From Cladochytrium replicatum (Eukaryota > Chytridiomycota > Chytridiomycetes > Cladochytriales > Cladochytriaceae): DNA of 64,000 bases. The notes below the pieces were generated by a model that was not told where the DNA came from, ran no database searches, and saw nothing but the letters and a program-made list of their open reading frames with translations. The DNA lies in NCBI GenBank assembly GCA_025526935.1, contig JAHLKD010000013.1, forward strand, positions 186,001 to 250,000, in the 5' to 3' direction. Shown here in pieces: positions 15,451 to 44,003 of the stretch. Every line of letters begins with the position of its first letter. Position 1 is the stretch's first letter. The position numbers were made by a program, and so were the translations under genes.

Positions 15451-15791
15451 CGTGATGATGACGCATGAGGTTGACCAGATTTGCCGTTTTTGAGAGAATT
15501 ATTGAGATGCTGTTTGTTTGCCCAATGTTGATACCTTTCCTACTCACTCACGTTTTCCGCTGTTACTTTGAGTTTCTGATTTATTTTTACCGCTTTACAC
15601 TCGTTTTCCTTCTGCTGCTGACTCCTTTCTATGATGTGCTTGTCAGCCATGAAAATTAAAGTTGAAGTGGATCGCCCTTATGGATATGAGGAAACGCGAG
15701 ACGCGTCAGCCACAATTGAACCAGACTCGGAAACCACTTTTCTGATTTTTTTGTGCTACGAGCGAAATTCAACCTGAGGAACGTCAACAAA

Positions 15792-18236: not shown

Positions 18237-20619
18237 ATTTCTAAAATACAGAAAATGAGATAGCCATGGAAAGTATGATCCAAAGAAAAGATTCCCAGGA
18301 CGTTGAGGTGGAGCGATTAATCGGACGGGTTCCGTGTCACTCGCACCAATATTCCGGCCGCTAGGCATTCATATCCTCTCAGCAAATTACTGAGAATCTG
18401 ATTATGTCCAGTGACCCCCATATCCAACGTCTATCATCCCTTTTGGGAGACTTGGCTCCGAATTCGTTCTGATTTACATCCCTGTTAACTGTGACCACAA
18501 GCGATTGAAAGTTCTCAAGTGTCTGTTGAACTATTCGCATTCAGCATGCTTACCCCAATCTTTCGTCCGTGCTGTTCAAGATTGCTGTCGTATTGGCCAT
18601 GATGATGAACCATGAGCTAAACTGCGCTTATCCTGGAGTTCATTCAGGCGAAGGAAATTCAGGTGGTTGCTGTCCTTGTCCTCAACGCTGCCGAGGGAGA
18701 CGAGAAGCTTGGTTGTACGTTCACAACGAAAGATATTGACTTCCAAGTCGTTGCCATAGGGCTCAATCCCGAGATCACTTCAGTCGTGCACGTTCTGGAA
18801 TGTGCTCAATGATTTTGTACCTTCAGACTCTTCGCAGTTAGCTATAGGAACTTGTTGCAGCTGCTCAATGAATTTTGAGTTAGCCACTATTGACATCTTC
18901 CCGTTCTCGATGGTTTCCGCTGGTCTCATCGACGTGCCGCAACATTCGATGGCCACATTAAACTTTTTGGTAGGTTAAGCAAACCAATCGCACTGATTTA
19001 GCTGAACGAAGTGCACAGATCTGCAAAGATGCCTCTGATGAGTTTACTTCAAGACTGGCGGTCGTGTGAACAGTACGTCCCAACGTCGGTGGTTCGCGCG
19101 ACTGTGCTACATTCTACGACGGAGGCAACGTCTCCCAGCACATACTTACTATCTTACTATCGACTGCATACCTGCCCGCTGGTGCAATCTTCAATTCAGA
19201 CTTGCTCACACCTTGTCCACGACGGAATGGGATGTCCACGACGGAATGGGAGTGGCATGTCCGATCCTGATCAGATCCATGATTCAAAACTAAGACATAT
19301 GCGCGATTTTGCACCTTTCCTCCATGATTGACTGGATGGTGGCGGGGTTAGGAATATACAAAGTGATTGTATCCGAGATTGTTTAACGTCAACGCGTGCG
19401 ACAACAGGGACTGCAAGTGTGCTGCTGGCACTTGGAAATGCTGAACAAGGTCAACATGCACATAGCAGGTGGGGAAGAGTGGAATGCAGTCTCAACACAT
19501 ATTATCGGATCCCTTATGAGTCATGATTGCAGCTTGCTGATTGGTTCTTTCACCCTTTTTTGTTGCTTGTGTCTCGCCGACCAGTCGTTTGAAGTTTCCT
19601 CAAGTTGAGCCGTAGTATTTCTTTGATATGCGATTCTGTATTTTTGATGTGCATGTGTTCACTCTTCTTTCCGTTTGTTCCCACTGCTCTGGCGAGTGAA
19701 AAATGAAAATGTCCCAGTTATTCTTGGTGCGCACTCTTCTGCTATCTCACTGCTTCTCCCTTTCCGAGCCCAGTGAAACAATTCTTTCAGCGGCGATTCA
19801 TGGAGTGCCATGTCAATACGTTTGCAGCACAAAACAATTTCGAGAACAAAGGGGTGTTGGATGTGCTTGATGAAGCTCCAAGTGAGTGTAGAATTACTTT
19901 AAGGAAGATTGCCAAGATTTTGATCGGCAAACGAGACCAATTTGGGCGAAGTTCGACATCGCAGTCAGCAGGGGATCAAATGTATGGATTGAAGAGAACG
20001 GCTGTTATCTCAGATTGTAATATTGCCGCAACATATGCAACTGGCGACATCCAGATTGGGACAAACTCGAGGAAGCATTGGAGTGGGCTGCATTTGCACA
20101 AATGCGTAACTTTCTGCACAAAAAATGTTTCGTGCTACTCAATGATGTTACAGTACCGTCTAGCATTGAACTGAAAGGGACGTTTTGCTTGCAGACATTA
20201 AAGTAATCCGGAAATTCTTCAGGGAGGACAATCAGTCAAAGGAACAATTGGTTTCGATGTACAGGAACTGCAGCAGATGCTTTCGTTCGCGAACCTCACT
20301 TCTGGAGTCCAAAGGAATGGTATATTAGGATAGTCCAGCGATCAAGAGAACGATGGAAAATGGATGGGGGAAAATGAAACTTGGCAAAATGATGATTTGA
20401 AGCAAAATAAATGACGACATAATGATAAACCTGATATGAAGGAAAACCAAAATTTGTGAGAAAGATAAAAATACTAATGCTAAGGCGATGGTCCTCTAAA
20501 CTGAAGCCACCACGGAAGTTCCGAGAAAGGACAGCAGCGAGCCGAAAAACTCAATGTGTCCTCCCAGGAACAAACGTGCCATTGTTGAAGCGAGACAGTG
20601 AATAAACAATATGACGGTT
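18237..20619. other. Intergenic stretch with coding-like debris, no supported gene
   Basis: The first 800 bp contain short protein-like runs on the + strand in changing frames, such as one ending CRIGHDDEP near 18613, one containing TFTTKDIDFQVVAIGLNPE near 18720-18780, and NFELATIDIFPFSMVSAG near 18870-18910. Stops and frame changes prevent a gene model, so this may be an old pseudogene. A 133-codon frame at 19773-20174 is without recognisable features. The rest holds nothing I can support. Confidence 0.3.
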
Positions 20620-22902
20620 CTAAAGACTCATCAATATTTCCTTGCGAAATTCGTGTCCAAGTCCCTTCGTCCAATATCGCAAAACCATTACATCATTAGT
20701 GTGCGCACCGACATAGTTGAGGAATTCCTCTGTGTTCCTGCTTCCGTTTGTGCTGCTCCCTTTCTTGCTGCCGTAGAGCCCGAAAACTGAAATATGTGCC
20801 ACGGGTTTGTTGTTGTTGAGTGAAGTTGGGGTATCTGGAACATCCGTGCCGTTCTTATCAGATACTGTTTTCGAGAACCTGAAGTATAGCTTTGCTTTGC
20901 TGAACGAATAGATTTAGAACACATTTGAAGGTAACCTCGTGCAACGCTCACCTAAGCCATTGCTCTTTAATGAATACGAGCTGCATTTTGAGAAGCTCTG
21001 ACTCGCCCTCCGGGGCCTTTGTAATGGCCTTCCACATTTCCTCCAGAATTGTGGGAGTCGCGGAGGATGAATCAAGGTCAGCCGAGCCAGTGGTTCGCTT
21101 GTCTGGAGGTGGAACACGCAGCTCGTAGTCGGATACGCTTTTAGGTTCTTGTTTCGTTGGAATAACCTCTTTACTCTCAAGATCAGCATGAAACTCCCGA
21201 GACAAAAGGTTTTGTGCTGCTCACCAATTAGGAAGACGTGATTAGAGCTCAAGTCTTTCGGTAGTGCAGTATTTCGTGATATTCCAATAAAATTATATTT
21301 CCACGACTCTTCGTACTCTTGTGAGAAGTCGAGTGCTGAAACGCAATGGTGGGGAACAAGTTCCTGGAACAATCTCGTCAGTGGGGCACAGCTTCATAAA
21401 GACACCAAGAAAAAGCTTACCTGGAAAAGCTGGAGAGTGGAGGATACGATTGCAGGCTCGTCTCCGCGAACGACGATCTGATTTCCAATCAGGACCTGAT
21501 GGATAGCAGAGCGAAGGGTTCCGTGTGAGGAGAATGCACGCAAGAGCTGGTGGATGCTGGTAAATCGAAGGTGCAAGGTTTCCGTCCGTGATGGAATATT
21601 AATCGTTGAGCTGGTGGGCGTGGATGGAGTAATTGGTCGAAGAATAGGAGGAGTTGGTGGGTCAGGCGCGACGGTGCCGATCTAAACGTACAAATTTAGA
21701 CGTGAACGATGTAGCATGTATTGTGCTTACAAGTGCACGGCCATTGAAAGATTTTTCCGTAACACGAATGCCAAATGCTTTCAGGAGCCAGGTGAAAGAC
21801 TTATGAATTTGGAAGAACAAGTCCTGACAACTCTATTAGTTCGAACTTCAAAGAGAGAAGTGATTGATATCCTACCCTAGAGCCCAAAAGCTCGGAGAGA
21901 AGCCGAGGAGGTTGACTTCCACGCCGTCTTATCAGTTGTTCTAACATAATTGAGTCACATGAAAAAATTGACTATAATAGTCACTCTGGACCAACCTTGT
22001 GAGTGGCTAAGATTTCTTGAATGTGGCCCAACTCCAACAGATGGATCGCCAGACCGTTCACGCTCCATTTTAAATACTTTATCAGCCCTACTTCTCAAAT
22101 CCATCGCGATTGCCTTCATTTGCCTGTTTTCAACAGTAAGTATAGTCCCACATCTAAAGTTTCTGACCCATACGCGACAAGGAAAGGCCATGAGGCTACG
22201 AGGAAACTTCTATCCCGATTGAGGAACAAGAGGGCATAGATCCTCTGGAACCCACGGGCTTGGTTATCCGGGATTTTGAACAAGTAGGACAGTATTTCTC
22301 CTTGTCCTTCGTCTCCAAACAAGATCGGGCCTTCGCGACCGGGGCAGAATTCGTAACTAAGACTTTATCACAAGATTTAGATATAAGTTTTACAGGTGCC
22401 GAAAGTAAAAGGGAAAACTGTACCTTCTAACGCATGCTTGTCGAATCGACGAGTACATCGCTGGGATGTACGGATACCGACCCGTATAATAAGCTATACC
22501 CGTGGTGTCGTCGAATGAACGGTATCCTCTCAGTTCAACATTGCTATTAGGTGACGTATCCAGATTTTGAACGCTTGGGAGAAATGTTGGAGAGCATCCG
22601 GAGCATATTCCAGGTAGACCCGCGGCGACAGCGAGTTCATTTGGAGTTGGTTTGGGGGAGCCAGAGTATAATTTTTCCATTTTGCCTCCAACCATACTTG
22701 GTGCTGGAAATGGTGGAGGAACGGGCGGTGGTATTGAGGGAGAAGTACCATCTTGGACGGCCTGCGTGCAGCTCACAACTGCTGGGCCGTGCTGGTCGCA
22801 AAAGCATGCCAAGACGACTGTTCCATATATGCGTGGGAGTGCGCGCAGAGGAGACGCAAAAGAGTGATGGGGAATGTCTGCAGACAGAAGATCGGAGCCC
22901 AT
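20620..22902 (-). CDS. LST7: Folliculin / Lst7, Rag-GTPase regulator (longin-DENN protein)
   Basis: Exons (descending): 22902-22424, 22356-22174, 22123-21996, 21940-21876, 21823-21731, 21681-21421, 21363-about 21225, about 21205-20940, 20899-20620. The ATG is at 22902; the longer frame begins with GTG. Family hallmarks are present in order: VVLACFCDQHGPAVV, CSGC, RQACVR, CPGREGPILFGDEGQG, ARGFQRIYALLF, SWPFLV, then the DENN part with HQVLIGNQIVVRG and the C-terminal LRYWTKGLGHEF. Folliculin, with its Lst4/FNIP partner, acts at the lysosome/vacuole in amino-acid signalling to TORC1. The junction near 21200 is not resolved: the frame changes there without a normal-sized intron, so a small indel or unusual splice is possible. 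Confidence 0.88.
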
Positions 22903-23525
22903 TGTGGGCGAGCGAGGGGTGGACAAGCAGCACACCGCAGAGGATATGCGGTGTTACGTTTCGCTTCAAGACTCGGCTTTGACAGACCCTTGTGCTGCTA
23001 CGGCTGAGGGTAATTTTTGCGCAGGCGCATTTTATTTGAAGGGCGCGACGGCGGGTGATGTTACACGTGAACGGGAGATGCAAGATAAAAAATACAGTGA
23101 TTGCGGTGCTGGTAGATACGGGCACAAGAAAGAGTCAGGGGGGATTGCTGCGTTGTTCGTGTTGTTCGTATATCGGCGGTTGAGTCCGGTTTCTTGTCAA
23201 ATAAAGACGAATTGATAGCATCAGAGGGACTGGCTCACAAAACGAAAAAATTAGAATTCGGGAGAATATGCATGTTCATGACTGATCCAATGAAAGTGCC
23301 AGCTCTTGCTGCACGTTCGACTCCTCCATCCATCCATCCGTAAATCCAGAACAAAAAGTTGCGAATTCCTCAACTGCACAGCCACTCTTCCCAAAAAGGG
23401 TAACAGGGCGACTCTCATTGCGCTCGCGCCGCCGCCGACCGTGACGTGTTCTCAGGCGCTTACCTCTATCCACACGCTTTGGGAGAACATCACTCACTTT
23501 TAGTCAGAATTATCCCACTTAAAAA

Positions 23526-26500
23526 ATGGCCTCGACGTTTGGGATTGGCCCGCGATTCGTGGACTCCGGTATATATGGCAAAAACCGTTATCCACGCAAC
23601 CACCCACTTACCTTTCCAATCCATCCACAAAAATGAAAATCCACTTCAGTAAAAACGGATACACCTGCGCCCGGTCAGTACTCTGTTAACCAGAGCTTGC
23701 TGAACAACGACAAATCAAAACACTTTGGATTCCTAGAGAAGTCTGAGAGGTTCGCAAAAAGTACGAGGATGTGCTCTCTCTTGAAGACTTTAGACCCATA
23801 AATTTTATCAATCCACAGTGTCAGCCTCTCTCGCATCAACACCGACACCTGGCGAGGAAGGGAAAGATCCTGACTTGTCCACCGCATCGTGCGTCTCCCG
23901 AACAGACAAAAGGGATCGAGAAGAGCTGGCACGTATCAAGAAAGAGGTACTATGACAGAGATAAAAGATTTTGGATCGTGTTCTAACACCTCTCATGCAG
24001 TCACAACAATTCAAAGAGCAAATTGTCCGGACAATGGAGAGACAAGCTCTCCAATTCGAAAAAGATCTTAGCATTCTGGAGGAAAAGTACAACCAGGCTG
24101 CCGCACAACTCCAGACTGTGCAGAAGGAAAAGAACCAACTGTCGAGCAACATTGCGGTCAAAGATAAGGAGATAGACGAGATCAATCGAAAGTACTCCAA
24201 TTTACGGGCCAATGTAAGTCTAAGGACTTCTTCTAATCCAAATCGATCTGATTCGCTTGCACCCAGCTGGAGAAGTCCGAAAAGCTCTCTTCTTCGTTTC
24301 AGGAAAAAGCCTCAAAGCTCGCTGCTGTCAGCAAAAAGTGCGAGGAGCTTGAGAAGCAATCGCAAAAGAACAAAATGCTCGTCAGTGAGGCCACCCAGAT
24401 TCACGAACGATGGAATAAGGAAAAGGAAGAGATGACCACGCAGGTCTCTGCGGCCCGCAAAGCCCTCGACACAGCAAAAGCCGAAAGAGAGCGATTGAGT
24501 GAGGAGCTTCGAGCAGCTCAGCGGCGGTTTGCGGAAGAGCGGAAGGCCTATGACTTCCGCATTGAATCCATGACGGAAGAAGTGCGAGCACTGAGGGAAA
24601 GCGAAGGCGCGGCAGAGCGTGAAGTAGCAGAGGCACGGCTTTTAGTTGCGCGGCGTGAAGGAGAAGTAAAAGCGGCGAAGGAGGCGCTGGATGCATTGAA
24701 GAAGACGATAAAGCAGAGGGAAAGCGATATCCTGCAGATGCAGGAGCAACTCAAGGAGGCGAAAAATGAAATGAGTGCACTGGCTGCACGGACAGATAAG
24801 GAACGGTCAGAAGCTGGCGCTATGATTGAAGGGTTGCGGGTTGAAGTGCGGGGTTGGGTTGCGAAAGGAGAAGAGTTTGAACGGGATCGCGCAGAGCGTG
24901 AAGGTCGAATCCGATCTCTTGAGGCAAAATTCGGATCTGCAAAGGCTGACGCTGAGCGAGAGAAGGTCGAAAAGATGGCGCTTCAACGCGAGCTTGATAG
25001 TCTGCGGACAATGTTGGATGAGGAGAAGTTTATGCAAACTGCTGCACAGGCCGAGTTGAGGGCCGTCCAACTGCGAACTCTCGATCTACAGGCACAGATT
25101 AGCCACGCGCACAACAAAATGGACGATTATTTATGCGATCTCTCAGCAGCCGAAAAGCAAATTGAGGAAGCACGAATCGCAAAGGTTGAGGCAGAGGGTC
25201 GTTTACGCGGTGCAGAAGCCGAGCTTGCAGCGCTGAAAAGCCGCCACGAAGAGGCTACTGCTAGTCATCGTGCGGCGATAATGGAGCTCGAGAATGCAAT
25301 GAAGAGCCACGTCGATGACATGGAATGGAACCATAAGAACGCAGTTGAGGAACTACGAGATCAGCTCAGGCATACAGAGGAGATAGCACGAAAGGCTGCC
25401 GAAGAGTTCAAGAAAGAGATGGCGGAGATGCAGGATCGTCACCGTTTCCAAGTTGCACAGATCGAGAGGAACACAGCCGCTACAATTGAGAGCATAGATG
25501 AGCAATATAGGCTTGCGATCGAGGAAGCTGAAGTGCTCAAGAAGGAACGAGATGATATGAAGCGAAAGTTTCGTGCCGAAGTTGACCAGTGGCAAAACGA
25601 CCTTATGCGCGTCACCGATGAGCACGGATCTGACACAGAACAGTTTAAAGAGCGAATTACCGAATTAGAAGGCGATGTCATCAGGCGAGAAAAGACAATC
25701 GCGGACATGGTTCGGGCACAGAAACAGCGCGAAGAGCAGTTTGCTTCGCAGGTCGAGGCATTGGATGCCGAAGTGAAGGAGAAAGCGATTGAAATCGAGC
25801 GCCTTATGGCGGATCTCGCCCGCATGCGACGAAGTATGGAAGAGAAAGAGAACGAACACCTAGAAGCAAGCGAGGAGTGGGATGCGACTAAGAGTAGGCT
25901 GGAGGGCGAAGTTGAACTATTGGAACGAGAGGTGGCTCGTCTCATTCAAGAAGGGAACGTTCGAGTTGCAGAAGTTGAAGCACGTCGGCAGGAAGAGACG
26001 TCGGATCTGCGAATGCAGCTCTTGGATGAACAACGCAGAACCGCGGAGGTTCAGGCAATACGCGACGCTGAAAGTGCGGAACATTCTGAAAAAGTGCGCA
26101 AGTTGAAACTAAAGCTCGATGAAACTATCAAGGAAGCGAAAACGATGGCGGATCGTCATAATGAGGAAATCGAAACTCTGACAAAACAGTTGAGCGAGCG
26201 GTATAGAGCGAGCGAGGATGCTGAAACGGAGTGGAATGCACTTAAAGAGGAATGGACGAGCCGAAACCTTGAGTGGGAAGGCAGAGTTCGAGACTTGGAA
26301 AGCGAAATTACGCAGCTCAAGGAATCAAACCATCACCTTGAGCACTCGTTGGCCGACAAGGAGTATGAGCTGCAGCAACTTGCGGCCGAAATGAACGAAC
26401 GAATGTCGAACTTGGCACAGGCAAAGGCGCAATCGGAGGCAAACCTCCGTACTGAGATCGAGCGCCGTGACAACGAAATACGCATGCGTGAGAAGCACAT

Positions 26501-29091
26501 AATCGAGGTCAAAGGAATGTACGAAAAAGCCAAAGAAAATATCGACGCCCTCAACAGCGATGTTGCTGAGCTTACGGAGCAGTTGAACGAGAGCGAAGAC
26601 ACCGCGGACGCTCGACTTGAAGAGATCGAACAACAGAAACGGCAGATCATCGAATTCGAAGCTGAAAAGGACAGGCTGAATGCGAACCTTGAGGATATGA
26701 GGGAACAGTTCATTGTAAAGGTGGACGAATTGAACACAATGCTGGAAGCTGAGCGTGAAGCGATTGAACGACAAAGGGAACAAACCGCCAATGTTGAGCG
26801 ACAGAAAGACGGACTGATCTCTCAGCTGAGCGATTCGCAAAATGAATGCTCAAAATTCAAAGCTCTCAACAATCAGCTGAATGAGCTTATTAACGAGACT
26901 GGTGAAAAGTTGAAACGTGCAGAGTCCTTAAACGCACAACTTAGCCGTGAGAAGGAGGAGACTAACACTCAATTACAAGGCTCCGAAAAGGAATGTCAGA
27001 GGCTCAGGAACCAGTATGCAGAGTTGAAAATCGACATTCAGGACTTGCGCGAGAGGCTGGAGTCGGCGTTGGAGGTTGGGCAAAGGATGAAGGACGAACT
27101 CAAAGTGAGGGACGGCCAGCTAAGCGATCTCGATAGTTCGTATTCCGAACTCAAAGAAGTGCATGATCAGCTCAACCTTACAGTACAGCGACTTAAAAAC
27201 GATCTGGAAGCCGTGAACAGTGAGAAAACTGATCTTTGGCGCCAGAGAGATGAGGTTACAGCGCGGAGTGGACAACTTGAGCTTCAATGCGCACATTTGA
27301 GCGGGAAAAATGAACAGCTGGAAAATGAGTGCAAGCATCAGAAAGTTCAGCTTGAGAATTATGAGCGAGAGTTTGAGAAGTGGAACGCAGAATGGGCGTC
27401 GCGAGCTGGGGAGATTGAAGGAATGAAACGAAGGTTAACGTCCGATGGAGCAACGATCAAGGGTTTGGAGGAGAACATCACAGCGAAAGATCAGCTGCTG
27501 GAGGATGAACGTGCGCTCCATGAGAAGGTTGTTTCAGACTTGGAGGGAAAGATTGGACAGTTGCAGCAATCAATTTCCGAAAGCCAAAATCAGGTACAGG
27601 AGCGAAACGTGCAGATTGTTGCCTTAAAAAATATGGTTGCCGAAATTGAGAACCGGCTCGCTGTCTTGCAAACGCAACATGGAGTTCAAATTGATGGGCT
27701 TCTGACAGAACTGGCTGCTGTGAAATTAGATGCCGAAATGATGGTCCGAGAACGCGATCTACGCATTGCGACACTCACAACTGCGAACAAAGATTACCAA
27801 TCAACCTTGGAAGCAAGTCAGGCATTGGAGAAAATCAATCTGTCGAAGATTGACGAGCTGAAGTGTCGTTTGGAGGAGCGTGAACTCCTAATCGAACAAG
27901 AGCGTGCGGCCCGCGATCGTGCAGAAGCCGAAATTGAATCAATGAAGCGTACGGGTATCGAAACCGCACGCCGCTGCAGTGAGGAGTTGACTGAGTACCG
28001 ATCCGCTCTCAACGATGCTCGCACGCAAGCGGCCCGTGCGTTCGTGGAACGTGATGCGGCACAGAAGGCGAGCGTTGAGATCGGTGCAAAGCTGAAGAGC
28101 GTGGAGTTGAAGTACGCGCACGAAACTAGCGGTCGGGATGTTCACATCAAGTTTATTGAGGAGAAGCTGGTGGAGACCACAAACAAATATGAATCTGAAA
28201 AGGGAGAAAACGATGCGAACAAAAAATCTCTCAAACGACTAGAGGGTAACATCGCAGAATTGAAGAGATCGGTTGAGGATGTCCAGAAAGAAAAACATCA
28301 AGTTGAAGAGATATTGGTCATCATTCGTGAAGAACTTGTGCAGTACGTATGAGCAACAAAGAGGATTTAAGATTGCTAAATAAATCTTTCAAGGGCAAAC
28401 GAGCGCGCTGATGAAGCTGAAACGGTTCGGTCGGATCTCGAGACCAAGCTTCAGTCTCAGGTGGATTCGTTGTTGCACAAGCATCACCTTGCCGATTCTG
28501 AGCTCAAGAAATTAAGTGAAATCAATGCAGAATTGCTTGGGCACACGAATGCTCGACAGAAGATTAAACACGTTGCACATATGAAGGAAGAAAATATTAA
28601 GCTAAAGAAGGTGTGGTAAATGGAGAACTTCGATATGTCTCTGGCTTAACATTTTATATCAGGAAAATCTTTCGCTGTCGAAAGCTAAAGACGATCTTGC
28701 GCGCAAGTTAATGACACTTCAACGAGAAATGGAAGCACTTCGTGCGATCCCCTCCACAAACGGATTGAAAACATTGGCCACCTATGATCCCCTCGCTCAA
28801 ACTGGCACTCCGAATGTTGGGTCTAGCCTCAACAGAAAAACTGTTTCTCGGGTTGGACGCACGGTGCTGGCCATGCAACAGAATCGCGAGTCCCACCACC
28901 ACATTCTTCAGCAGCAGCAACAGAACCTTCAACAAGCGGTTACCTCAGTTGGAGTTGCGGACAAGGTTGCTGCTGCTGCGATGCCAGATAGTGGGAAGGA
29001 TGTTCGTGTGGAGTTTGCCAGGAGTGCTGAAGGAGAGAACGGGGAGGTGGTTGTTGAGGACAAGAACGGCTTCTTTTTTGTCCCCATTTAA
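23526..29091 (+). CDS. RHAMM/HMMR-like giant coiled-coil spindle protein
   Basis: Seven exons: 23526-23568, 23650-23760, 23819-23946, 24001-24213, 24267-28342, 28394-28610, 28663-29091; all phases agree, 1738 residues. The N terminus (MASTFGIGPRFVDS, then TPAPGQYSVN) resembles the Pro-Gly start of HMMR proteins. About 1500 residues of coiled coil, rich in Glu/Lys/Arg, follow. The tail carries LLGHTNARQKIKHVAHMKEEN, which matches the conserved C-terminal HMMR motif needed for centrosome/spindle association. The exon 5/6 acceptor is AAG. It ends 136 bp from the end of the pericentrin-like gene on the opposite strand. A role at centrosome or spindle is inferred from the family; the middle coiled coil by itself would not discriminate. 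Confidence 0.85.
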
Positions 29092-29226
29092 ATTTTACAG
29101 TAGTTTTTCTGCTCCAGGAGGATTTGTATCATTACTTTATGCATGTTTATCCATTTTTATCGTGCGAAAAAGCGCTTCATTCTATTTCGGCAACATGATA
29201 CATGCCTGCCCAATGTCCATAATTGT

Positions 29227-32200
29227 TTAACGTCGACCAGCTCCCGTTGTGGGCGACTCGCGACGACGGAAATCATTATTTGTGACTAGGCCAGGCCGAA
29301 CCCCAGGACCAATTCCACGATCCCCCCGAACATTTGTCGATATTTGTAATCCCACCATTGCCGGTGAATTTGGCCGCCTCGAAGGTTGAGCTTTTGCTTG
29401 AACAGATGGTGCCGCAGGCTGACTTCGAGACGTCAAATTAACACGATACTGAGCTGTGCCAGTGTTCCGCACAGGAGGTGCCGTTGGTGGCTTACGAGAA
29501 GTCTCACCGTTCGAGCGGGCAGACAATGCTGGTGATGAAGGTGTTCGGCGGGGAGATGATCCCTCGATTGATGGTGTATGCTTTGGACTGTACAGAGATC
29601 TGGTGTAATGGAGTTGTTCATCCTGTCCGCCAGAGCTTTGAGGTCCCGGTGAATATCGTGAACTGAGTGGCTGCTGTAGCTCATGAAGCGCTGCAACTAG
29701 ACGCTCGTTTTCTTGCTCAATTGCATGCTTACGAGCTTGTTCTTTTGACAGAATCCGTTCCAGTTGTTGTTTTGCCCCAATTAGCTTGGTCATCTCATCT
29801 TCTAGGCCCTGAACCCTTCGAATCCAAATCGTTGGAGACGCACGGTCACTGTTGGCTGATTGCCCCCTGCGCTGATAGTATAGAATGTTGTCGGGAGTGG
29901 TCATTTCAGACTTTGTTGGTGAAAGTTCGCTGCCTTCCGGAAGTGGAAATACTTCTCGCGAGCTCTCGCTCACCACTTCCTGCCAAATGCGCGCGAGAAT
30001 TCTTTCGGAGTTGTTAGCAGACAGATCAAATAGCTGCCCGCAAATTTATGCTTACCTCATTCTAAATATACTGATTACAGCGAGTGACGCAGTGCGGAAG
30101 CGCTTGATAGGGGTCAATGGACCTTGGGCGGTAAAGTTGGGGTTAATTCCCATTCCCTTTATGTATGTCAGAGTTGCTTTTTGGCTGAAAGCTATGACAT
30201 CAGTCTGTGGAAGTTGTTTGAGTGGGAAAACATACCTCGTCAAAAGGTCGGCGACCTTGAGCGACAAATACATCTTTTGGTACTGTAAGTCCGCTCGCCA
30301 GAGTAGCATTCGATTGACATATGCGCGCAAGTATACAACCTCGTTAATAAGTGCGCCACAGAGCTCCTTAAGTCTATGAGCAGAAGGAAATTAGATCGTT
30401 CGTGCAGGCTCGACTCTGCAATGTTTACCCACCGGAACACATCGAATTGCGCTGGACCTGAGTCTGTTGAGCTCAGGGACTGTGCCCCGGGAGATTCTAC
30501 GACAAGGGCACTCTTCACAACATGAACAACTTCAAAGTTGGCTTGTTTGACCAACCGAAGCTCACGTCGAAGCTCGTTGATCTCATTTTGTAATGCATCC
30601 TCCTAAACAGCGGTCAGATGCTGTACATATGAAATACTCTAAGTACTAACCTTGGAAGGCGATGCTGAAATCCTACCGGCGTGTTCAGCTGCAGTGGCCT
30701 GGAGCTCATGCACTTGGTTTTGGAGCTCCTGGCAGTGCTGGCGAACAATTTCATGCTTTTTCCGCTCATCTTCAAACTTACGTGCATACCGCTTGCTTCG
30801 ATCCCCCTCATGCTTGTACAGCTCCTCGGCGGAGGTCTTAGCCTTCAATTTTATCAGATGGCAAAGTCTTTCAGAAGCTCATAGTAATTCTCACCGCCTC
30901 GAGCTGAACTATTTGCTGCTCCAAAACGCGAATTCGCTCACCAAGTTGTTGCTCAATTTCTTAGCAAAAATAGAGTGAGCTCCAGTTCCTCCGCAGAGTG
31001 TTTCCTACCGTGAATAATGTTATTCGCTTCAGCATTTTTAACGAGTAAGCCCGATATTTCACGTCCCGCCTTTGCGAGATCGTCTAAGAGTCGAGCCCTT
31101 TCAGAAACCCATGACGCTTCCTCGGAGCTTTGCGTGCTTTGAGATTGTGTAGTCTGTGCGGCAGCACTGGTTGCAACAGCACTAGGTGGACCCCAGCGAC
31201 CCATTCCGCTCTTCAGTGTATCCCGCATGCGAGCCACATCGTCCAATAGTTGGCGTTTCTCGACTTTCCAAGCTGTTTCACTGTCAGCAAATCGACGTTC
31301 ACTCTCCCGCCGCTCATACAGAACTTCTTCTTCCTTCTCCGCCAGACGTTTCTCGGTCTCGCGGCGTTCTTCGACCAACGTTCGCTCGCGTCGCTCGAAT
31401 CGTGCCTCAAGGTCTCTTCTCGCATCATTAACAGCTTTCTCGCGCTTTGCGAGTCTAGCTTCTGCTTCGCGTTTTTCGTCTTCTATGATCCGGCGTCTTT
31501 CTTCTGCTTCGAGTATGCGCTGAAGCATTGTTTCTCGCTCTTCTGCCCATGTCCCTTCCATTTCAGTGAGGCGCTCTTCAGCTCGCCGTTTCCCGAGACG
31601 CACTTCCTCGAGCATCTTTTCGTAGCTGCTTCGCATCTCGGCCAGCTTTTGGGAAAACTGATCTCGAGATCTCTTCAAATCCGCAATAAGTGATGCTCGT
31701 CCTTCTTCAGCAGCCATGATCTCCCGCTCCCTCATTGACTGCTCACTGCGACGCAGGTCTTCGATTTCATTCTGCATCCTGGCGCGTTCACTATCCCACA
31801 TTGCCTCAGAGAGGCTCATTTCCTCAGCGCTCTGAGTCTTGAGTAACTCAAGAGTTTTCTGTGCCTCTCGTAATTTCTCCTCTTCTTTTCGAATGGCAGA
31901 AGTGTGCTCGCTGTTACGCTCTTCAAGCTTTCGTTGCAATCCATTTATCTCAGCCTTCATTTCCTCAAACTTCTTGCGTAATCTATCTCGTTCCTTCTCT
32001 GTCTGGGCAACTACTTTGCTTAATGCCTCCATTTCGCGCAGCTGCATATCCTCAAGCGAATTAGTGTGCTCCTGGTGCTCCAAGAACTGTGCGTTCAAGC
32101 GATCGGCAAATCGGCGCTCAGCTTCCCGTGCCCGCTCGTAGTTTTCCGCGGCTTCCTGCTTGAGGATCGACGCTTCTTGATCTAAGCTATCAAACAATTC

Positions 32201-35200
32201 AACCAACTCGTCAAACTCCTCGCGAGCTTGCTGAAGCTGGCGCTGGTAGCCCTGCTCAGTGCGCATTGTTTCAGCCTGTGCCTTTTCGAGAAGGTTGCGC
32301 AGAACCGCATTGACAGAAAGCTCATGGAAGCATAATTTCCTCATCTCTTCCGCCTGTCGACGAAGCACTTCGTTCGCAGTTGAGTTCCCTGCACTGCTTC
32401 CCCGAGTTGTGGAACCACTGCTTGAAGCTGGTGGAATAATGCTGGTTAACTCCGTGAGCGTCTGAACGCATGCTTTCAGCGCGCTGATTTCGTTTACTTG
32501 CTCGTTAACAAACGCTTGCACATTCTCAAACTGCAACATGTAACTTTCAGCGGCGGCAGCACGTGTTGATAGCTCAGCGTATTCCTGGCTGCTGAGGTGA
32601 TATCCACTGCTGTGATCGTTAAGAAATTCGCTGCCGGCACCGCTCGTACTTCCTCCCAATCCCGAAATTGATACGCTTCCTCTACCCCTGGCCGATACAC
32701 TGTGTTTCCTATTGGACACAGATGCTCGATCGTGAAGCTCTTCTCGCATATCATCTAGTTCAGACACGATGCGCCTCTGCTTATCCTGAACACTGCGTAA
32801 AGTTGACAAAGTTAGAGAAAGACTGCCATTCACACGGGAGGAGCTCCCTGCTAGAGCTCAATGGTCAGAACATTTGCATTTAAAATCTCTCCGAAACAAA
32901 CCTGCATAATCGTGCTGCATTGCTTCCACACTTTCGACGAGGACCAGGAGAATTTCTTCATAATCCGCAACAGCTTCAACAACCTTTTCAACTCTGTCCT
33001 CGATGTCTGCAGTCTCCTGCCTTTTATCAAACGAGGAACTTGGCCGCCTCTGTGCACGCACTGTGTGCGAACGATCCTCAATCCACTTGGACATGGTTTC
33101 AAGGGTTTCGAGAAGTCGTCCTTCCTCTTCGATCAGACTTCCCTGGCTTTCGATCATTTTCCTCAAACGACGGCGGAGAGCACCCCGTCGTCCCTGGTTG
33201 TACCGCCTTCTTGCCTCAGAAGACGAATGCCCGCTTAGTGGTTCCGAAACCTCCGGGTACTCAGAATCGTCATCAGCTTCTCCACTGACGTCGGCCCCAG
33301 TTGACCCCATACTGTCCTCAGCTCTGGTTGGTGACATTCTTGATATACTTGATTCACGCGCACTCATAATTTCTTTGTAGATCTGCTGTGAAATGCCCAT
33401 ATTCGAGCGAGTAGCCTTAACCAGACTGGAAACCTGATCTCCAAGTGACTGCAGAATACGGACAGCTCGATCATCACTCCTAGATGCATTTTCTTTCTCA
33501 ATCCATGAGCCCGGTCTGGCTTCAGCTAGCGTCTTAACAACTTCATCGATAGCAGCTAAGTTGCTGCCCGCTCTCAAAATGGAATCTTCCAACCCTTCAT
33601 CGCCACTTCCATCATCATCTTCCAGTTCCTTGTTGTTTCCTCGTCGCATTTGCACCAATTTCCATTCTAATTCTTCTGCTCGTCTCTGCGCTTTCCCCAT
33701 TTCCTCACGGTAGAGTTCCATCGTGGCAACAACGGATTCAGACATATGCCTGTAACTTTCCACTTTGCTTAACGCTCCTTCTAGCTCGGCTGCCTTCTCA
33801 GAGCGCAATTGATCGACTTCAATCGCTTTCAATTCAAGTTCTGCTCGTAAAATCTGTACGTCCGGGCTCTTATCGGCAGTCGAGCTGGCGTATGCCCCAA
33901 ATAATTGGGTGACATCTCGTGGTCCCGAGCCGGTTTTCAGGTCATCAACCTGCCTCTTCAATGCTTCGAGACGTGGAACTCGCTCCTCCAGCTGCCTCAA
34001 ACGTGCATTTGCCTCCACAAACTGTGCCGCTCGCTCTGCAAGCGCTTGTTCGGCTTCCCTCAGCTTTGACTCTGCACGCTCCGCGCGTTCATCAAGCTGC
34101 ACACCTCGCGAGCGCAAATTGTCAGCCATCTTGAGCTGCTCCTCCATTTCGGCTAGTCTGACTCCTTCGTCTTGCAACGCCAGGCTGAGCTTCTCGATAT
34201 CATCTTCGTACTCCAACAGTCGAGCGTCGAGGGTTTTAATAACCTCCGCTTTGGCTCGAACTTCCAACTCCAGCGCTTCGACACCACGACGACGTGAAGG
34301 TCGCCCGTCACTTACCAAATTGTCGCCTTTCAGAATCGATATTGTCCTTTCTTTTTCTTCCACTAAAAGCTGGAGTTCTCGTATCCTTTGCCTTGTCTGG
34401 GCCGTATCAGTTCTTTCTGTCTCCAAGTTACGCTCTAAGCCTGCAACGATCTCCTGCAATTCCTTTTTGCCTCCTTCGAGAGCCTCACATCTTGCAATCA
34501 GGTTCTGCTTATCGTCCTTGATCACATCCAAATTCAACTTGAAAGCTTTGTTTTCGTTCTCGAGAGCCAGAATAGCTGCTGTTTGCTCCTCCCATTTTTG
34601 CCGTTCCTCCTCCGACCATCGCTGCTTCTCTCTCTCCAATGAGCTTCGCATCCCCTGCAGTTCTTCTGTTAATCTACCGACAGCATCAAAAGCGCTACGA
34701 CGTTGCTCCTCTAGTTCCAGTGAGAGCTGCTGCTTTTGTCTCTCTAACTCAAGTATGGACTCCTCCAAGTTCGCCCGAGTCAGATCAGAGGATGCAAGGG
34801 TTCCTTCAATCCTTTCTCTTTCCGTCCCGATCTCGTTAAGCGATTTTAAGAGACTGTCACGCTCGACTTGAATAGCAGAGAGTTCCTCACTCTTCTCTCG
34901 CACAATTTCATCCAACGTCACAACAAGTTCTTCAAGCTCCTTTACCCTTTCCGCCAGCTCATCTCGCTCCACTGTTGCCCTCTCAAGCTCCCGGATCCTT
35001 GCAGCTAGAACTTCGCGGTCCTCTACCGCGTTCTTGAGCTCACTCATGCGCGCAAGGAGCTCTTCGTTTTCTAAGTCAACTTCGGCTTTTGCGGCTTCGA
35101 TCTCCCGGACACGTTCTTCGGCTTCAATCCGCAGCTTCTCGGTCATGTTGACGGCATCCCGGCGCACAGCTTCAAGGTCTGCTTTCAAATCATCGAATGC

Positions 35201-38181
35201 ACGGGATCTTTCGAGCTCGTCAGCTTCGTGTTCAGCAATGAGCGTCTCGTGATCAGTAGCGAGTGCTTCATGATCCGCTGAGAGGGTTTCGTACGCATCC
35301 TTGAGAAGGAGTAATTCCGCTTCAAGGCTAGTGACTTTTTGGCCAGACTAAATCGCACAGTTTAGAAATTGTTGCAGCCCTTACTTCCAAACATCTTACG
35401 TTCTCATCGAGCCGTTTAAAGTTCATTTCCATCATCATCTTTTCAGCTTCAAGACCTGCAATTACCCCTTCTCGGTCCTGGATGACACGTTTCGCTTCCT
35501 CTACTGCCCTTCGAATCTCTTCACGTTCCTTTTTAGCTGCATCGAGTTCGTTTTTGATGTCCTCTGAAACTGCAGACTCACGATCCAGTGCATTCTGAAG
35601 ATCTCTCAGGCGGTTCCCAATGGCACTTCGTTCCTGCTCGATAGCACGCTCGATTTCGTCCTTCTCTGCTTCTTTGGTCGACAATACATCCCGGAGAGAG
35701 TTACATTCCTCCGACAATGCTGCAATACTTTGTTCGGCACCACCAAGCAGTCCCTGAAGTTCTGCTACTTCTGCCGACTTCTGCTTGAGCGCAGCGCCGA
35801 CGTCAGCCGCGTAGTTTTGCATCTGCTCTTTGAGTTGTTCTTGCTCCCTTTCGATCAATCCGGCAGTGTCCCCAATTCCATTTGGTACGTTTGGACGAGA
35901 CTCGAGGTCGGCAATGAGTGTATCTCGCTCATCGAGCAAGTCTTCCAGTTTCGCGATGTGTTCCTCCAGCTCGATCACCTTCTGCTCACCGTATGCCGCT
36001 CGATTTTTCGCATCGTCGCATTCCGCGATCAAGGCGTTCTGCTGGTTCTCTACCAACGCGACCAGTTCCGAGTATCGCTGCTCCAGTAACTCCGCAGCTG
36101 AACGAGCTTGCTCCACACTTTGACGCTCAACATCTACATCTGCCCTCAGAGACTGTTCCAAATCCAACAAGCGTTCGATTTCGGTATCCCGGTCGGCCAA
36201 GCTATTTTCGAGCTCCAGAGTGCTCTCCCTCAATTCTCGAACAGTTTCCGTCAACTCATCCCGCTGTCGATTAAGGTCCGAAACGGATGAAATTACTCCC
36301 TGATAGTTGATAGATTTGATTAGCTTGGACAGTTTTGAAGTTTCTGACAACTCTTACTTCTTTTTCAGCAAGAGCCGCTCTCGAAACAGATAAATCATGC
36401 TCAAGTTCTACGATTTTTGCGACGTCGTCAGCTTCGCGGGAGTTTTCAAGATCATCGATTCGAGCTTGCAACTCTCGCATGGTCTGCTCGGCACTTAGCT
36501 TAACACGAGAAAGCTGCTCATCTCGTTCTTCCAACGCCAGTCGTGTGTTTGAAAGCATCTCCTCCAGTTCTTCGACGTTTCTGCTAAGATTCTGCTCCGT
36601 GGACTTTGCTTGAAGTGTGTTCAGCTCGTGCTCAAGCTGAGAGTTTCGAAGCTCTGCGGCATTCTTAGCCAAGTTTACATCAGCTAGAGTTGTACTTTCT
36701 GCGGCTAACGCGATTTCAAGCTCTGTCACCTTCTGCTGAGATGACTCAAGCAGACCCAAAAGATTCTGCTTTTCGAAGGTTCCGTATTGTTCGCTCTCTT
36801 TCAAAGCCTTTTGTAGCTCCACTATTTGAGAATCATTCTTGCGAACCAATTCTTCCAGTTCAAGCACGCGTGCCTGGAGCTCCGGATTGTTGTCGTTGGA
36901 CACTAGGGCATCCTCCAACTCTTTGATGCGCAAATCCATTCGATCCTGGATAGCGCGCGCAGCTAGTTCTCCATCACGCTCACTGTCCATGACAGCACCC
37001 TCGAGTGTACTCACTCTTGAACGAAACTCTTCGCTTTCACTTTGTGCAATCCTCGTCGCTTCAAGAGCAGCAGCGAGGTCCCCCTCTAGCTCTGACACTT
37101 GCTCGTGAAGTGTGGTCACTTCAGACTTTGCAGCTTCAAGGGCGGACAACAGTTCACGGACGTGTTCTCTAAGCTCGGTGCGTTCGTCGGTCAGGTTCCG
37201 AAGTGTATCCAACAGCTGCTGCATATCTGTCTGATCATTTTCTTCTCCCTTGAGGCGCTGTGAGAGTAATTCGTTTTCGGCTTCGAGCTCTTCGATCCGC
37301 TGAAGAGGTTCGATTGAAATGAAAACTCGGCGAGTTTGGTCTCCGCTTCCGGAATCCGAATCCACTTGTTGCAGTTGAAGTTTTAGAGCACGATTCTCTT
37401 CCGTTAGAGTGGTGAGCGTGTCGATGAGCTTCTGCTGATCAGACCCGGTATAATCGTCGTCCACTGGGGCGGGAGGACGCGTCTCCAGCTCTTCGCGTAA
37501 AGACGCGTTCAGTATCTCCAGATTCTCTATTCTGAGCTCAAGCTGAGCAGCGCGCGATTCCTCGGAAGCAAGCATCGTTTGCAAGTGCGCTAGTGCGTGG
37601 AGGTCAGAAGTGAGATGCTGTCGCTGCTCCAATATTTGGGTAGAAACTGTAATGTGGTCATGGGAATGTGCCGGAGAAAGTCGCGGCGGTGGAGGTGACA
37701 GGGGATAGACGGATTGCGAGTGCGATGGTGGAGTAAAATCTGTGTAACCCGGCACATGAGACGGCACGTCCAAAACCTCCGCCATGGACTGGTCGGCAAC
37801 AATCGAAAGCTGTTCTGGAACCTGTGCATCGATTGTGATGGATGGTCTTGGTGGGTCGATCCCTAAATCCTGCACAGATTGCCGCCTCGATGCCACATCG
37901 ACGTTTGATTGAATCTGCGAATCGACATCCACGTTCGACGTGCTGGGGGAATAGGGAACGTCAAGAGACAGATTTGAACCTTGTAAAGAGAGGATTAGCG
38001 GGGTCGTTGAGGCTGATGGATGGCCCGATGAAACATTGGCGAGTTTTGATTGTTGGCGACCCTTCTGAAACTTCTGCAGCTTTCGCTTCGCCGACGCAAG
38101 TTTAAGCTCACGTGAGCGAGTCGCAGCAGGCGACAGGGGGCCAACGGAAGGCAATGACCCTGTGCCTTGATTCGAGCTCAT
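29227..38181 (-). CDS. Pericentrin/Pcp1-like giant coiled-coil protein with PACT domain
   Basis: Nine exons (descending): 38181-36358, 36299-35400, 35347-32902, 32847-31009, 30959-30895, 30842-30651, 30602-30433, 30373-30056, 30001-29227; phases agree, 2842 residues. The N terminus has a KLASAKRKLQKFQ motif like the KL.AGK.KL..F start of AKAP450/pericentrin, then more than 2000 residues of coiled coil. Near the C terminus lies a PACT-type centrosomal targeting domain: YLRAYVNRMLLWRADLQYQK, KYL-like core, GMGINPN, RFRTASLAVISIFRM and ILARIWQEV across the last intron. A Ser/Pro-rich tail follows. Such proteins anchor gamma-tubulin complexes at centrosomes or spindle pole bodies. Three introns end in AAG. 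Family assignment rests on the PACT domain. Confidence 0.88.
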
Positions 38182-38829
38182 CGTTGGTTGAAGTGTTTCT
38201 TCACAGGAGAACTAACATTCCAACGAAATGATGGGCACGTGTGGCGAAAGTTGAAATTTGTCGCTGCTTTACTTCTGAGATTCATTTATTGATGTATCCA
38301 GTGCAGTACTATGCTGGTCGGCTCTTAGTTAAAGTGTCGATACCTCAGCAAATGTGAGGAACCATGGCATCAATATTTGATCGAGGTACATCAACCATTA
38401 TTTTGGTGACAATTTTACAGTGGAGCAGGAAGGCCAAATCTTGAGACCGAATACACATTGTTCCAGACGAGCAACTCATTGTTCATTTTGGGCAACTCAA
38501 ACATGTTGATTGATGTTCGTCCCAAAAAAAGTTATCACAGAGGCAGTGCCTGTTTTAGGAAAACGTATTTGAAATCTCTTCAGGGCTTGTGACACAAATA
38601 GCCTCTCATCGTGATCGCACCTCGTCTCGGCAGCGCAATTGGCGCAATCATACACTTCAGACATGGCGAGGCAGCTGTCATCAACACTGTGCATCTTTGA
38701 AAAATGGCCCTAAAAATCTTTCTTTGCTTCAACCCCAGGCCAAAATTTTCCATCTCTCTTCTGGTTGACTAGTCCATGAGAACACCTTAAAAGACCCTTC
38801 ATTTTCAGTCCGACACCTGAGAAATCAAA

Positions 38830-40232
38830 ATGGGAAACGCTCTGAGCAGGCGAAACAAGGATCGGGATCGTCAGTCGCTCGACTACATCTATGACACAAA
38901 TTCTGCAGCAATGCAGAAATCCCCTTATAGTCCACCAAGTGTGCTAAGTGGAACTGGGAGCGGCGCATCCAGCAACGGCTCTGTCCCTCCACCTGACCCT
39001 TTGCTCAAGTACTTCTCACCAACCATGGTAGGCAATTGCGCAGCGAAAATCATTTTTACTTTGTTCTCACCAGATCTGAAAGCTTCCAAGTATAACGATC
39101 GGAACACGCCTCAGCATCCAGCAGTACTATCTCGTCAGATGGCTCTTCAAGAAAAACTTTGCCGGGATTTCTCCAAAATTTTTGGCGGGGAGGTGCAAAG
39201 TGCTTGAAGCAGGGTAAATTTAGCCGAGTGCTGGTTTAAGTGAGATATCACCTAAGTTTTCTTCCATAGCTCGTCGACGGGTATTTGGTTGGCTGAAATG
39301 GAACGAGACTTTCCGAATGGCCAGTACTATGCACTTGACCTACCTATGACCATGTGGCCCGACACCCAGTTCATGAATAACAGCAGAACACTGAACATTG
39401 TCGAAAGCAGCACTCTCAGCCAATTGCCTTGTAAGTTATTGTGATCTGTAATCAGGAGGAAAATCGTTTGATAATGTCTGATCTCTCGTATTAGTTCCTG
39501 ACAACTACTTTGACTACGGTAAGTCCAAACTTTGGACCACTTCGAGTAATTTTATATCACTTACGAGCATTCACAATGAAGTGCACGAACAAGCTCAGTT
39601 GTTCATCACACCGGAATCTATTTGGCCCCCCGTAATCGCCGAGCTTACTCGAGTTGTCAAACCTGGTGGATACATTGATCTTGTGGAGGTACTTGCCGGT
39701 TCGTTCATGAAATGGCAAGCAAATTGATTTTCATTTTCTAGCTTGATCCCCACCCGTCCACTTTCCCAACTCCGCTCATCTCAAATTTCCTCGACCGGCA
39801 CCTGGAGAAAATGCGGGCCGACGGTTTCTTCCTCCACGGAGGTGAAAATAGGCCTTTTTCTTCTGATTACTCCGCTGATCTCGTGAACAGCATCTCAGGT
39901 TGAAGCCATTCTCGAAGCTACTGGGCAGTTTGCTGACGTCCAAGTCGTGAGGCACACAGCACCAATCGGTTGGGATGGCCAGCACGGAATGCTTTGGCGT
40001 CAGCACATGAAAGAGGGTTTTACAATCATGCGGCCTCTTATGGGTCCCAGCACAACGCCCGATGGACGTATGCCCAGCGAATCGGAGTTTGATCGATTCC
40101 TTGATAGGTTTTTCGACGATTGCGCGATTCATCAGTGTTTCTGCAACGTGGTATGTTTATCGTTGTTTAGAAACATCCTTATTTTATTACTTATGCTGTG
40201 TACAGTACCGAATTTCTGCGCGAAAGCGTTAA
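38830..40232 (+). CDS. SAM-dependent methyltransferase, probably N-myristoylated (intact copy 1)
   Basis: Eight exons: 38830-39027, 39083-39213, 39270-39430, 39495-39518, 39582-39688, 39742-39841, 39891-40150, 40206-40232; phases agree, 335 residues. It starts MGNALSRR, a good N-myristoylation signal with basic residues, so it may sit on membranes. Class I methyltransferase motifs: VLEAGSSTGIWLAEM (SAM loop, split by intron 2), YYALDLP, NYFDYVHEQAQ, VVKPGGYIDLVE. It belongs to the fungal methyltransferase family that includes UMTA/LaeA-like proteins; the substrate is unknown. Exons 4 (24 nt) and 8 (27 nt) are very small. Introns 1 and 4 end in AAG; the decayed copies downstream have TAG at the matching places, which supports these borders. 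First of a three-copy tandem array. Confidence 0.85.
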
Positions 40233-40579
40233 TCTCCCTATTTCAGAATAGCATTTCACCTTTTTCTCATCTCTGTTCCATGGCCGTCTGCGTAGTAATT
40301 CAATTACTGTTGACCATTCAACAAAGACAATTGCATTTTTGCTCTGAAAACACTTTTCTTCGCCTTGACTCGGAACCGCCGAGAAAGATATTTAATGCAC
40401 CGAGCCACTGATGACTGTGATCTACTTGACGCTGCGCGATCTCATTTCCACAATGGCATGGTGGCACCAGCACGGTCCGAAATAAAAATTTTCTTGGGTC
40501 CGAAATGTGAAGTCCGTCTGTGCCCCCAAAAGATCACCGCTGTGATAAAAGTTGGAGATCAAACAACTCCTCTCCACAA

Positions 40580-41065
40580 CATGGGCCATATCCAAAACAG
40601 GCGCAAGAGCGAGGACTCGAACACGATCCCAGAACGTGCCTCTCGGCTCACGTCGCCGTGACGAATTGACAGCTTCAGCGCACATTTCAATCCCGCTGGC
40701 ATGGTGACGTATCCTCCCGACCTGTTGTTGATGTATTTTTCTCCCACGATGGTAAGAATCGAAGCGATCAAGCTTACTATGCGCTAAAGTTGAATTCTCG
40801 TCATAGTTACCATAACCATGGGAACAAAACTAACGATGCAGCAATACTATCTTACAAAAACTTTGACGACGAGTAGCTATACAGGGATACTCGCTCCAGT
40901 TTTGAAGCTGGGTTTAGGTATGGTATTGTAAGCAGGGTATGTTGCTCGAACGATCATCATATGCTTGTTAACCCCAAAAGCTCTTCAACTGGCATTTGGC
41001 TTGCAGAAATGGAGAGGGACTTTCCGAACGGACAGTATTGGGCAATTGAATTGCATCATTAGATC
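40580..41065 (+). pseudogene. Truncated methyltransferase copy 2
   Basis: Resembles the first three exons of the gene at 38830: an ATG at 40580 with NRRKSED, then PPDLLLMYFSPTM before a GTAAG donor near 40752, an exon with MQQYYLTKTL near 40840-40870, and SSTGIWLAEMERDFPNGQYW at 40982-41041. A stop (TGA near 40659) and a 4-bp deletion in the second exon break the frame. It ends abruptly after the SAM-loop exon and runs into copy 3. Confidence 0.75.
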
Positions 41066-41100
41066 GCAAGAGCTGGGAATCTGCTGCTCGGCTCACACAA

Positions 41101-42507
41101 TGGGCAACGCATTTAGCAGGCGGTGAAGCAATGGGGTTTATTCCAAACGACAAATTCCACCGATTAGCCCATCGTCTTCACTACGAAGTGATACGCACGA
41201 CTACGCCGGAGGGTATTCTAAGAGATCTGGCCCGGCCCACCAAGTGCAAGTGAACCGGGGAGTCCTGCATCTAGCGGTTTCGATGGAACTTCACCTCCCG
41301 ACCCGTTGCTCAGATACTTTGCGCCTGACCAGGTATAAAGGATCATCCAATCAAATTCTGGTTCATGTTGGTTTCCCCTGTCAAAGTCTCCGGAAAACTA
41401 CAATCAGAACGAAGCCCAGCATGCAGCACTATCTGGTCAAGGGCCTTTGTAAAGGCGCCTTTGCTGGGATTCCGCACTTGAATTTGGACGCGGGGGCAAA
41501 AGTGCTCGAGGCGGGTTATGTTTGAGCGAATGCTGGCAATTTGATAACCAATCCGCTGTCCAATAATTAAGGGGATCCACTGGCATTTGGCTCACCAAAT
41601 GGAAAGGGACTTCCCAAGCGGACAATACTGGATGATCGATCTGCCTGCGAACATGTGGCCGGATACACAGTTTCTTAACAACAGCAAGCGTTTGAATTTC
41701 GTGGAAAGCAGTTCACTCAACCAGTTTCCATGTAAGTGGGTTGCAGCCTCGATCCAATATCATTCTCACTTGGTCAACATCACTAGTATCGACAATTGCT
41801 TTGACTACGGTACGATTGCGCCGATTCGATAGTATGATCCCTTTTGTCGACTAATTTTGATTGGCCAAATTAATAGTTCACGAGCAAGCACAACTGTTCA
41901 TCACACCAGTCAAGCTGGCCACCAGTCATATCGGAGCTCACCCGTGCTTTTAAGCCTGGAGGGTACATTGATCTTGTGGATGTGAGATGATTTTGAATGC
42001 TTCACATTCATTCCGTTTGACCCCAACGTCGCAAACAGCTGGATCCCCATCCTTCCACCTCCCCAACACTTCTAGTGGCTAACTTCTTGAATGAGCAACT
42101 CGGAACAATGCGCGCTGGGGGATTTTTCCTCGTGGAGGTAAGCTTCCATCAAATCTGGCTTGTACAAATCTAACGTATGTGAACAGCGTCACAGGTCGAA
42201 GAACTGCTCGATGCAACAGGACAGTACACAGATGTCCAAGTGGTGAGCTACACAGCACCCATCGGCTGGGATGGTCAACATGGAGCTCTATGGCGGATAC
42301 ATATGAAAGCTACACTAATCATCTAAATACATCAGACGAACACATGCCCAGCGAGGAAGAGAACGATGCATTCCTCGAACAGTTCTTTGACAATTGTGCG
42401 GCTGCTCACTGTTTTGCCAATGTGGTAGGTCTCAATTACTGATTGACCATGCCATGCAAGTTCATTTTGTCTTTTTAAAGTTCCGGATTTCCACTCATAA
42501 GCAGTGA
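41101..42507 (+). pseudogene. Full-length but broken methyltransferase copy 3
   Basis: Begins MGNAFSRR like copy 1, then has TGA at codon 9 (41125-41127). All later exons can be matched, including KVLEAG (41499-41516), ERDFPSGQYWMIDLPANMWPD, VHEQAQLFIT, and a last exon FRISTHKQ ending at 42507. One base is missing before ERDFPSG, two bases after FITP, and one base near 42130. These independent lesions make it a pseudogene, while intron positions remain recognisable. Confidence 0.8.
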
Positions 42508-42692
42508 CCCTCAAGTTCAACGTTTTCTCCTTGCTTTTTGTTCTCTTTTCAACCTATTATTTTTCTGCTGTGCCTTTATACTACAAGGGACACTATAATG
42601 GGTGGGGTTAAATCACCTCAGTTCGAGTGTTGTGGTAGTTGTTGGCACTAATAGCACTAATACGGTTATAAGAAAAGGGAGTCATCCCTTAG

Positions 42693-43965: not shown

Positions 43966-44003
43966 TTGCCCAGCGCCACACTGCCCGTCCCATCTCATCC
44001 TTG
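43966..44003. promoter_or_regulatory. 38-bp spacer between divergent start codons
   Basis: The carrier ATG (43965, minus) and AMSH-like ATG (44004, plus) are this close, so promoter elements and 5' UTRs must overlap the opposite gene, unless one true start lies further in. Confidence 0.4.

Follow-up and report, generated by a model that had tools for sequence, protein, structure and literature searches.

A probable HMMR-type protein gene next to a pericentrin-like PACT gene in the chytrid Cladochytrium replicatum

Two genes encoding giant coiled-coil proteins lie tail to tail in the genome of Cladochytrium replicatum, a flagellated fungus belonging to the chytrids (Chytridiomycota, Cladochytriales). 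One of them resembles HMMR (RHAMM) at its end and the other resembles pericentrin, which raises the questions of whether an HMMR-type protein exists in a fungus and whether the two neighbours belong together. The stretch of DNA analysed, referred to below as the window, comprises 64,000 nucleotides of contig C13. The exon borders of the two genes, A and B, represent our own reading of the sequence and the joins are predicted; the splicing is supported by domains that span exon borders, both in exons 6 and 7 of gene A and in the PACT exons of gene B.

The HMMR-like gene

The predicted gene A occupies positions 23526-29091 of the plus strand and includes seven exons encoding 1738 amino acid residues. 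A single reading frame runs unbroken across the predicted joins from the ATG at 23526 to the stop codon at 29089-29091, and all six introns have GT-AG borders. Exon 1 (23526-23568) encodes residues 1-14 and part of codon 15, and exon 2 (23650-23760) contains a SHIPPO-like (sperm-tail PG-rich) stretch at residues 19-49, detected in the first 71 residues by profile PF07004 (23.2 bits, cut-off 20). Exons 3 (23819-23946) and 4 (24001-24213) follow; when 277 residues were searched, the HMMR_N profile (PF15905) aligned its positions 4-142 with residues 19-162, exon 3 included, at 36.4 bits against a cut-off of 30.1. Exon 5 (24267-28342) encodes the coiled-coil rod within a stop-to-stop frame of 1366 codons. 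Most of the HMMR_C leucine zipper, with the GHTNARQKIKHV motif, is encoded by exon 6 (28394-28610), and exon 7 (28663-29091) encodes its remainder, followed by a tail of low complexity.

The initial annotation had recognised an HMMR motif in the region 28500-28680, and the profile search bears this out. The C-terminal 215 residues of gene A match HMMR_C (PF15908) with 51.3 bits (E 2.1e-13, cut-off 28.6), and a piece of 59 residues around the motif still gives 37.2 bits. In the 50.5-Mb genome, gene A is the only locus over the HMMR_C cut-off (47.1 bits in the genome search), with one additional weak match on contig C16 (16.5 bits) at E 10. The N-terminal HMMR_N assignment, made by profile comparison, is of moderate strength: the first 71 residues alone match SHIPPO only and give no HMMR_N match, so the HMMR_N score derives partly from the coiled coil. 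No HMMR_N match was found genome-wide when exons were searched one by one at E 0.1. That HMMR_N/SHIPPO and HMMR_C flank the rod in the expected order was counted in favour of the HMMR-type identity of gene A.

The middle of the protein is a very long coiled coil. Proline is absent between residues 69 and 1626 (about 1,560 residues), and the hydrophobic residues recur with a period of 3.511 (power 40.1; 95% level in 100 shuffles, 8.8). Fully helical, its 1,557 residues would extend about 230 nm at the textbook value of 0.1485 nm per residue. E, A, L, R and K are abundant in the rod, and 13 other coiled-coil-like families match the 59-residue zipper piece weakly, which is what would be expected if gene A were an unrelated long coiled coil whose HMMR matches result from compositional bias. 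However, all 13 remain under their own cut-offs, whereas HMMR_C exceeds its curated cut-off by 22.7 bits with the 215-residue piece. Neither the 1358-residue rod exon of gene A, whose best match (Filament) lies under the cut-off, nor four exons of gene B (608, 300, 815 and 612 residues) match HMMR, SHIPPO or PACT, and SHIPPO is, to our knowledge, not a coiled-coil family. A chance coiled-coil match is rejected by these controls and is the least probable of the readings considered here.

The zipper alone cannot separate HMMR from kinesin-12 (KIF15/Xklp2), whose C-terminal zipper is of the same kind as that of gene A. The accessible part of PMC7226759 gives a homology of 72% between the HMMR and KIF15 zippers, and the HMMR_C profile covers the region reportedly common to KIF15. 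Gene A could thus be read as a kinesin-12 tail that has lost its motor. Unlike KIF15/Xklp2, however, it has no motor part, since no kinesin domain was found in the scanned pieces, which together make up the whole protein, and its N-terminus appears to be SHIPPO/HMMR_N-like. In addition, the genome contains 100 exon matches to the kinesin motor family, but HMMR_C exceeds its cut-off in gene A only. The absence of a kinesin domain and the single HMMR_C locus do not support a motorless kinesin-12, and this reading appears unlikely.

As described in the available passages of PMC7226759, the N-terminus of HMMR binds microtubules, and its C-terminal bZip reaches the centrosome and resembles that of Kif15; the Kif15/Xklp2 zipper works with TPX2, through which it is reported to reach minus ends. 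Gene A is similar to animal HMMR in its putatively HMMR_N/SHIPPO-like N-terminus, long rod, C-terminal HMMR_C basic leucine zipper and lack of a motor. It differs in occurring in a fungus, whereas the taxonomic range named for HMMR in those passages is chordates and many insect orders (PMC7226759), and a hyaluronan role is not assumed for it. The predicted protein is also longer, with 1738 residues. Human HMMR has about 725. Judging by the sequence comparisons, this fungus probably does have an HMMR-type microtubule or spindle-pole protein. Gene A is the new element of this locus.

Among the matches listed in a search of the open-licence literature, there was no report of HMMR in a fungus, and HMMR, TPX2 and pericentrin all go unmentioned in the part of PMC11153136 available. 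The zipper region of gene A was compared with 5.8 billion proteins, yielding 207 candidates, none at E 0.01, and a 166-residue C-terminal piece yielded 93 candidates in the protein database, none at E 0.1. The protein of gene A itself was not returned, so the absence of relatives in the protein database says little. The zipper piece gave 261 pattern matches in GTDB contigs and 34 in viral contigs, with no relative among them. A search of solved structures by sequence returned nothing relevant for either end (best E-values: 0.088 for a keratin and 0.86 for a ribosomal protein).

The PACT gene

The predicted gene B is located on the minus strand at 38181-29227 and encodes a pericentrin/PACT-like protein of 2825 amino acid residues in ten exons. 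It begins with the ATG at 38181 and ends with the stop codon at 29229-29227, and nine of nine introns are of the GT-AG type. Five predicted exons (38181-36358, 36299-35400, 35347-32902, 32847-31009 and 30959-30895) are followed by five more (30842-30651, 30602-30433, 30373-30236, 30184-30056 and 30001-29227). The PACT domain, which had been proposed for this protein from the sequence alone, was confirmed by a profile search at its C-terminus (PF10495, 59.9 bits, E 3.2e-16, cut-off 25). It lies at 29983-30315 across three exons, a span computed from residues 163-238 of a 489-residue piece; a short piece gave 64.1 bits. A genome search at E 0.1 found PACT in gene B only. Apart from PACT, no Pfam family exceeded its cut-off in the pieces covering gene B, and no CM1 (Cnn_1N) motif was detected.

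Like animal pericentrin and AKAP450, gene B encodes a very long coiled coil that has PACT at its end and no CM1; it differs in having no family over the cut-off outside this domain. The first 45 residues include a K/L-rich stretch that we take to be reminiscent of the start of pericentrin and AKAP450. According to the parts of PMC6559791 and PMC6070874 available, PACT is the conserved end of pericentrin, located at the centriole, with calmodulin and SAS-6 as binding partners, and yeasts retain the PACT-type proteins Pcp1 and Spc110. Gene B shares with these a fungal host and a C-terminal PACT-type end, which in gene B would bind calmodulin as it does in the yeast proteins (PMC6559791, PMC6070874). 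The yeast proteins, in contrast, are described in the accessible text as binding the gamma-tubulin complex via N-terminal motifs (PMC6070874); no CM1 was found in gene B, and this motif lies on two other contigs instead.

The database search with the PACT region returned 1010 candidates and a single match, a hypothetical protein of Cladochytrium replicatum (P0001, 382 residues), which is 100% identical to the end of gene B over 83% of the 268-residue query and carries a PACT domain (60.5 bits). Its search against viral contigs gave two pattern matches and no relative. It seems, from a comparison of the two sequences, that gene B has been annotated short, because P0001 covers the C-terminus only of the predicted 2825 residues. 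This bears on the statement, found in the available part of PMC12659703, that chytrids lack clear pericentrin orthologues: clear members of this family may hide behind short gene models.

Partner genes and a proposed role at the spindle pole

The genome contains further genes of the centrosome and spindle. The genome search at E 0.1 gave five SAS-6 matches, the best on contigs C62 (72.7 bits) and C44 (68.9 bits), and another on C106, of 30.9 bits, that contains three internal stops. The SAS-6 matches are in keeping with a centriole-bearing host. Two of the 14 CM1 (Cnn_1N) matches at E 1 exceed the cut-off (C12, 39.0 bits; C46, 36.4 bits). For TPX2, the best matches on C32 and C55 reached 25.2 and 24.1 bits, with a weaker one on C83, and one of five was over the cut-off at E 1. 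Since the best TPX2 match is close to the cut-off (26.0 against 25 bits) and the ORFs on C32 and C55 match TPX2_importin below its cut-off, these loci are called TPX2-like here. The setting proposed by the initial annotation, a fungus with centriole genes, is supported, and the SAS-6, CM1 and TPX2-like loci were counted in favour of the explanation given below. Each of these three is found on two contigs, whereas HMMR_C (over the cut-off) and PACT occur at one locus each. No match to SACK1/FAM83 was found in the genome at E 1. No match to Aurora-A_bind was found at E 10, but this profile was also silent in every control and is therefore uninformative.

The best explanation, to which we assign a probability of about 0.7, is that gene A encodes an HMMR-type pole protein and gene B a pericentrin/AKAP450-type scaffold, both located at the centriolar spindle pole, and that their adjacency is accidental. 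We infer the functions, the partnership with TPX2 and the location in the cell as follows. By analogy with HMMR, the N-terminal SHIPPO/HMMR_N stretch of gene A would touch microtubules. The zipper, being of the HMMR/Xklp2 kind, would be directed to minus ends and to spindle poles, with TPX2 as the most likely link, and between them lies the long coiled-coil rod. The PACT end of gene B would sit on the centriole wall, where PACT reportedly binds calmodulin and SAS-6 (PMC6559791 and PMC6070874, parts available). Its coiled coil would reach outward and hold pericentriolar material. For both proteins, the expected site of action in the chytrid is the centriolar spindle pole.

It may be that chytrids kept an HMMR-type protein along with their centrioles and that other fungi lost it at centriole loss; we consider the odds for and against this to be even. 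The name HMMR still refers to hyaluronan, yet a fungus would seem to have little need of a hyaluronan receptor. If true, an HMMR-type protein in a fungus would date the origin of HMMR before the animal-fungal split and would argue for an original function at the spindle. As stated in the available part of PMC12659703, chytrids are under development as models of centrioles and centrosomes. Gene A, if its identity holds, is a pole factor that could be tested in such models alongside pericentrin and TPX2.

Adjacency of the two genes and the duplicated block

The convergent ends of the predicted genes are separated by 135 bp between the stop codons (29092-29226), and the strands, ends and coding regions of the tail-to-tail pair are as the initial annotation had described them. 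It had also proposed that the pair is an ancestral centrosome module lost in yeasts. The two genes would then have been kept together for joint work, with a linkage ancestral to fungi and animals. It speaks for such a module that two single-locus genes adjoin whose products probably belong to the same cell structure, and that, assuming 12,000 genes, a given pair is adjacent by chance with a probability of only about 1.7e-4 (about once in 6,000). However, the pair was noticed after the fact, and chance alone would place about 1.9 pairs side by side among 150 centrosome and spindle genes, both gene numbers being assumed. The genes are convergent and, consequently, have no common promoter. In humans, PCNT and AKAP9 are located on chromosomes other than that of HMMR. 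Vertebrate HMMR is positioned head to head with NUDCD2, according to the available part of PMC7226759.

A further argument comes from the surroundings of the pair. The window represents one copy of a duplicated collinear block, the other copy of which is located on contig C15, with a DNA identity of about 65-87%. The block covers window positions 7442-23038 and 38788-48853 and C15:149447-182606 (loci L053-L065). A DNA search with window positions 7400-23500 gave 14 matches, 11 of them on C15, where the collinear block is 72-87% identical, and the region C15:157000-206999 was then compared with the window. The collinearity stops at window position 23038 and restarts at 38788. Two stretches on C15 correspond to window positions 23433-23571 (70.4% identity) and 23690-23882 (73.8%) and constitute a relic of gene A, with its promoter side and parts of exons 1-3. 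The relic is broken: the start codon is out of frame with the downstream part, a stop follows the exon 3 remnant, and the first part of exon 2, where SHIPPO starts in the window, is unrecognisable. From the relic to the homologue of window position 38788 there are 426 bp on C15, compared to 14,905 bp in the window. No match to gene B better than E 0.28 was found in the gap (C15:166894-172430), and a whole-genome DNA search with window positions 27500-31000 returned the window itself only.

The relic indicates that both copies of the block once had gene A, which is now complete in one of them only, while its neighbours are still double. Since both genes are missing from C15 but the flanking genes are retained, the pair seems not to have been kept as a unit there. 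Together with the points above, this makes a conserved linked module very unlikely, and the adjacency of A and B is most likely accidental. The interpretation offered initially stands as to the two identities, HMMR-type and PACT/pericentrin-type, and the host with centriole genes. The ancestral module lost in yeasts finds no support, given that yeasts keep Pcp1 and Spc110, that HMMR in vertebrates adjoins NUDCD2 (as above), and that the C15 block is without both genes.

On the near side of the gap, about 4.75 kb of C15 have no match to the window, where the corresponding distance is 395 bp. A reverse-transcriptase ORF (RVT_1, 83.8 bits; L064:4035-4550, minus strand) stops 97 bp short of the gene A relic, and the loss at C15 may have involved a retroelement. 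Another ORF of the same locus (L064:449-1006, minus strand) encodes a succinate dehydrogenase/fumarate reductase flavoprotein C-terminal domain, and its DNA is absent from the window copy; a second ORF nearby (1414-1794) matched no family.

Other paired loci of the genome show similar relations in their longest alignments: the identity is 76.7% for the TPX2-like loci, 77.9% for SAS-6, and 81.6% and 84.1% for two kinesin pairs. The two CM1 loci match over 119 bases only (73.1%). A whole-genome duplication or an old hybrid origin of Cladochytrium replicatum would explain both the block and the paired loci compared here; no report of genome duplication in Cladochytrium was found in the open-licence literature searched. 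Within the block, window positions 38788-40386 and 41096-42431 match each other's C15 counterparts, and it seems that a tandem pair of related genes adjoins gene B in the window and is also present in the duplicate block. Elsewhere in the window, an ORF on the plus strand (61047-61550) is built up of a unit of about 21 residues, repeated almost perfectly.
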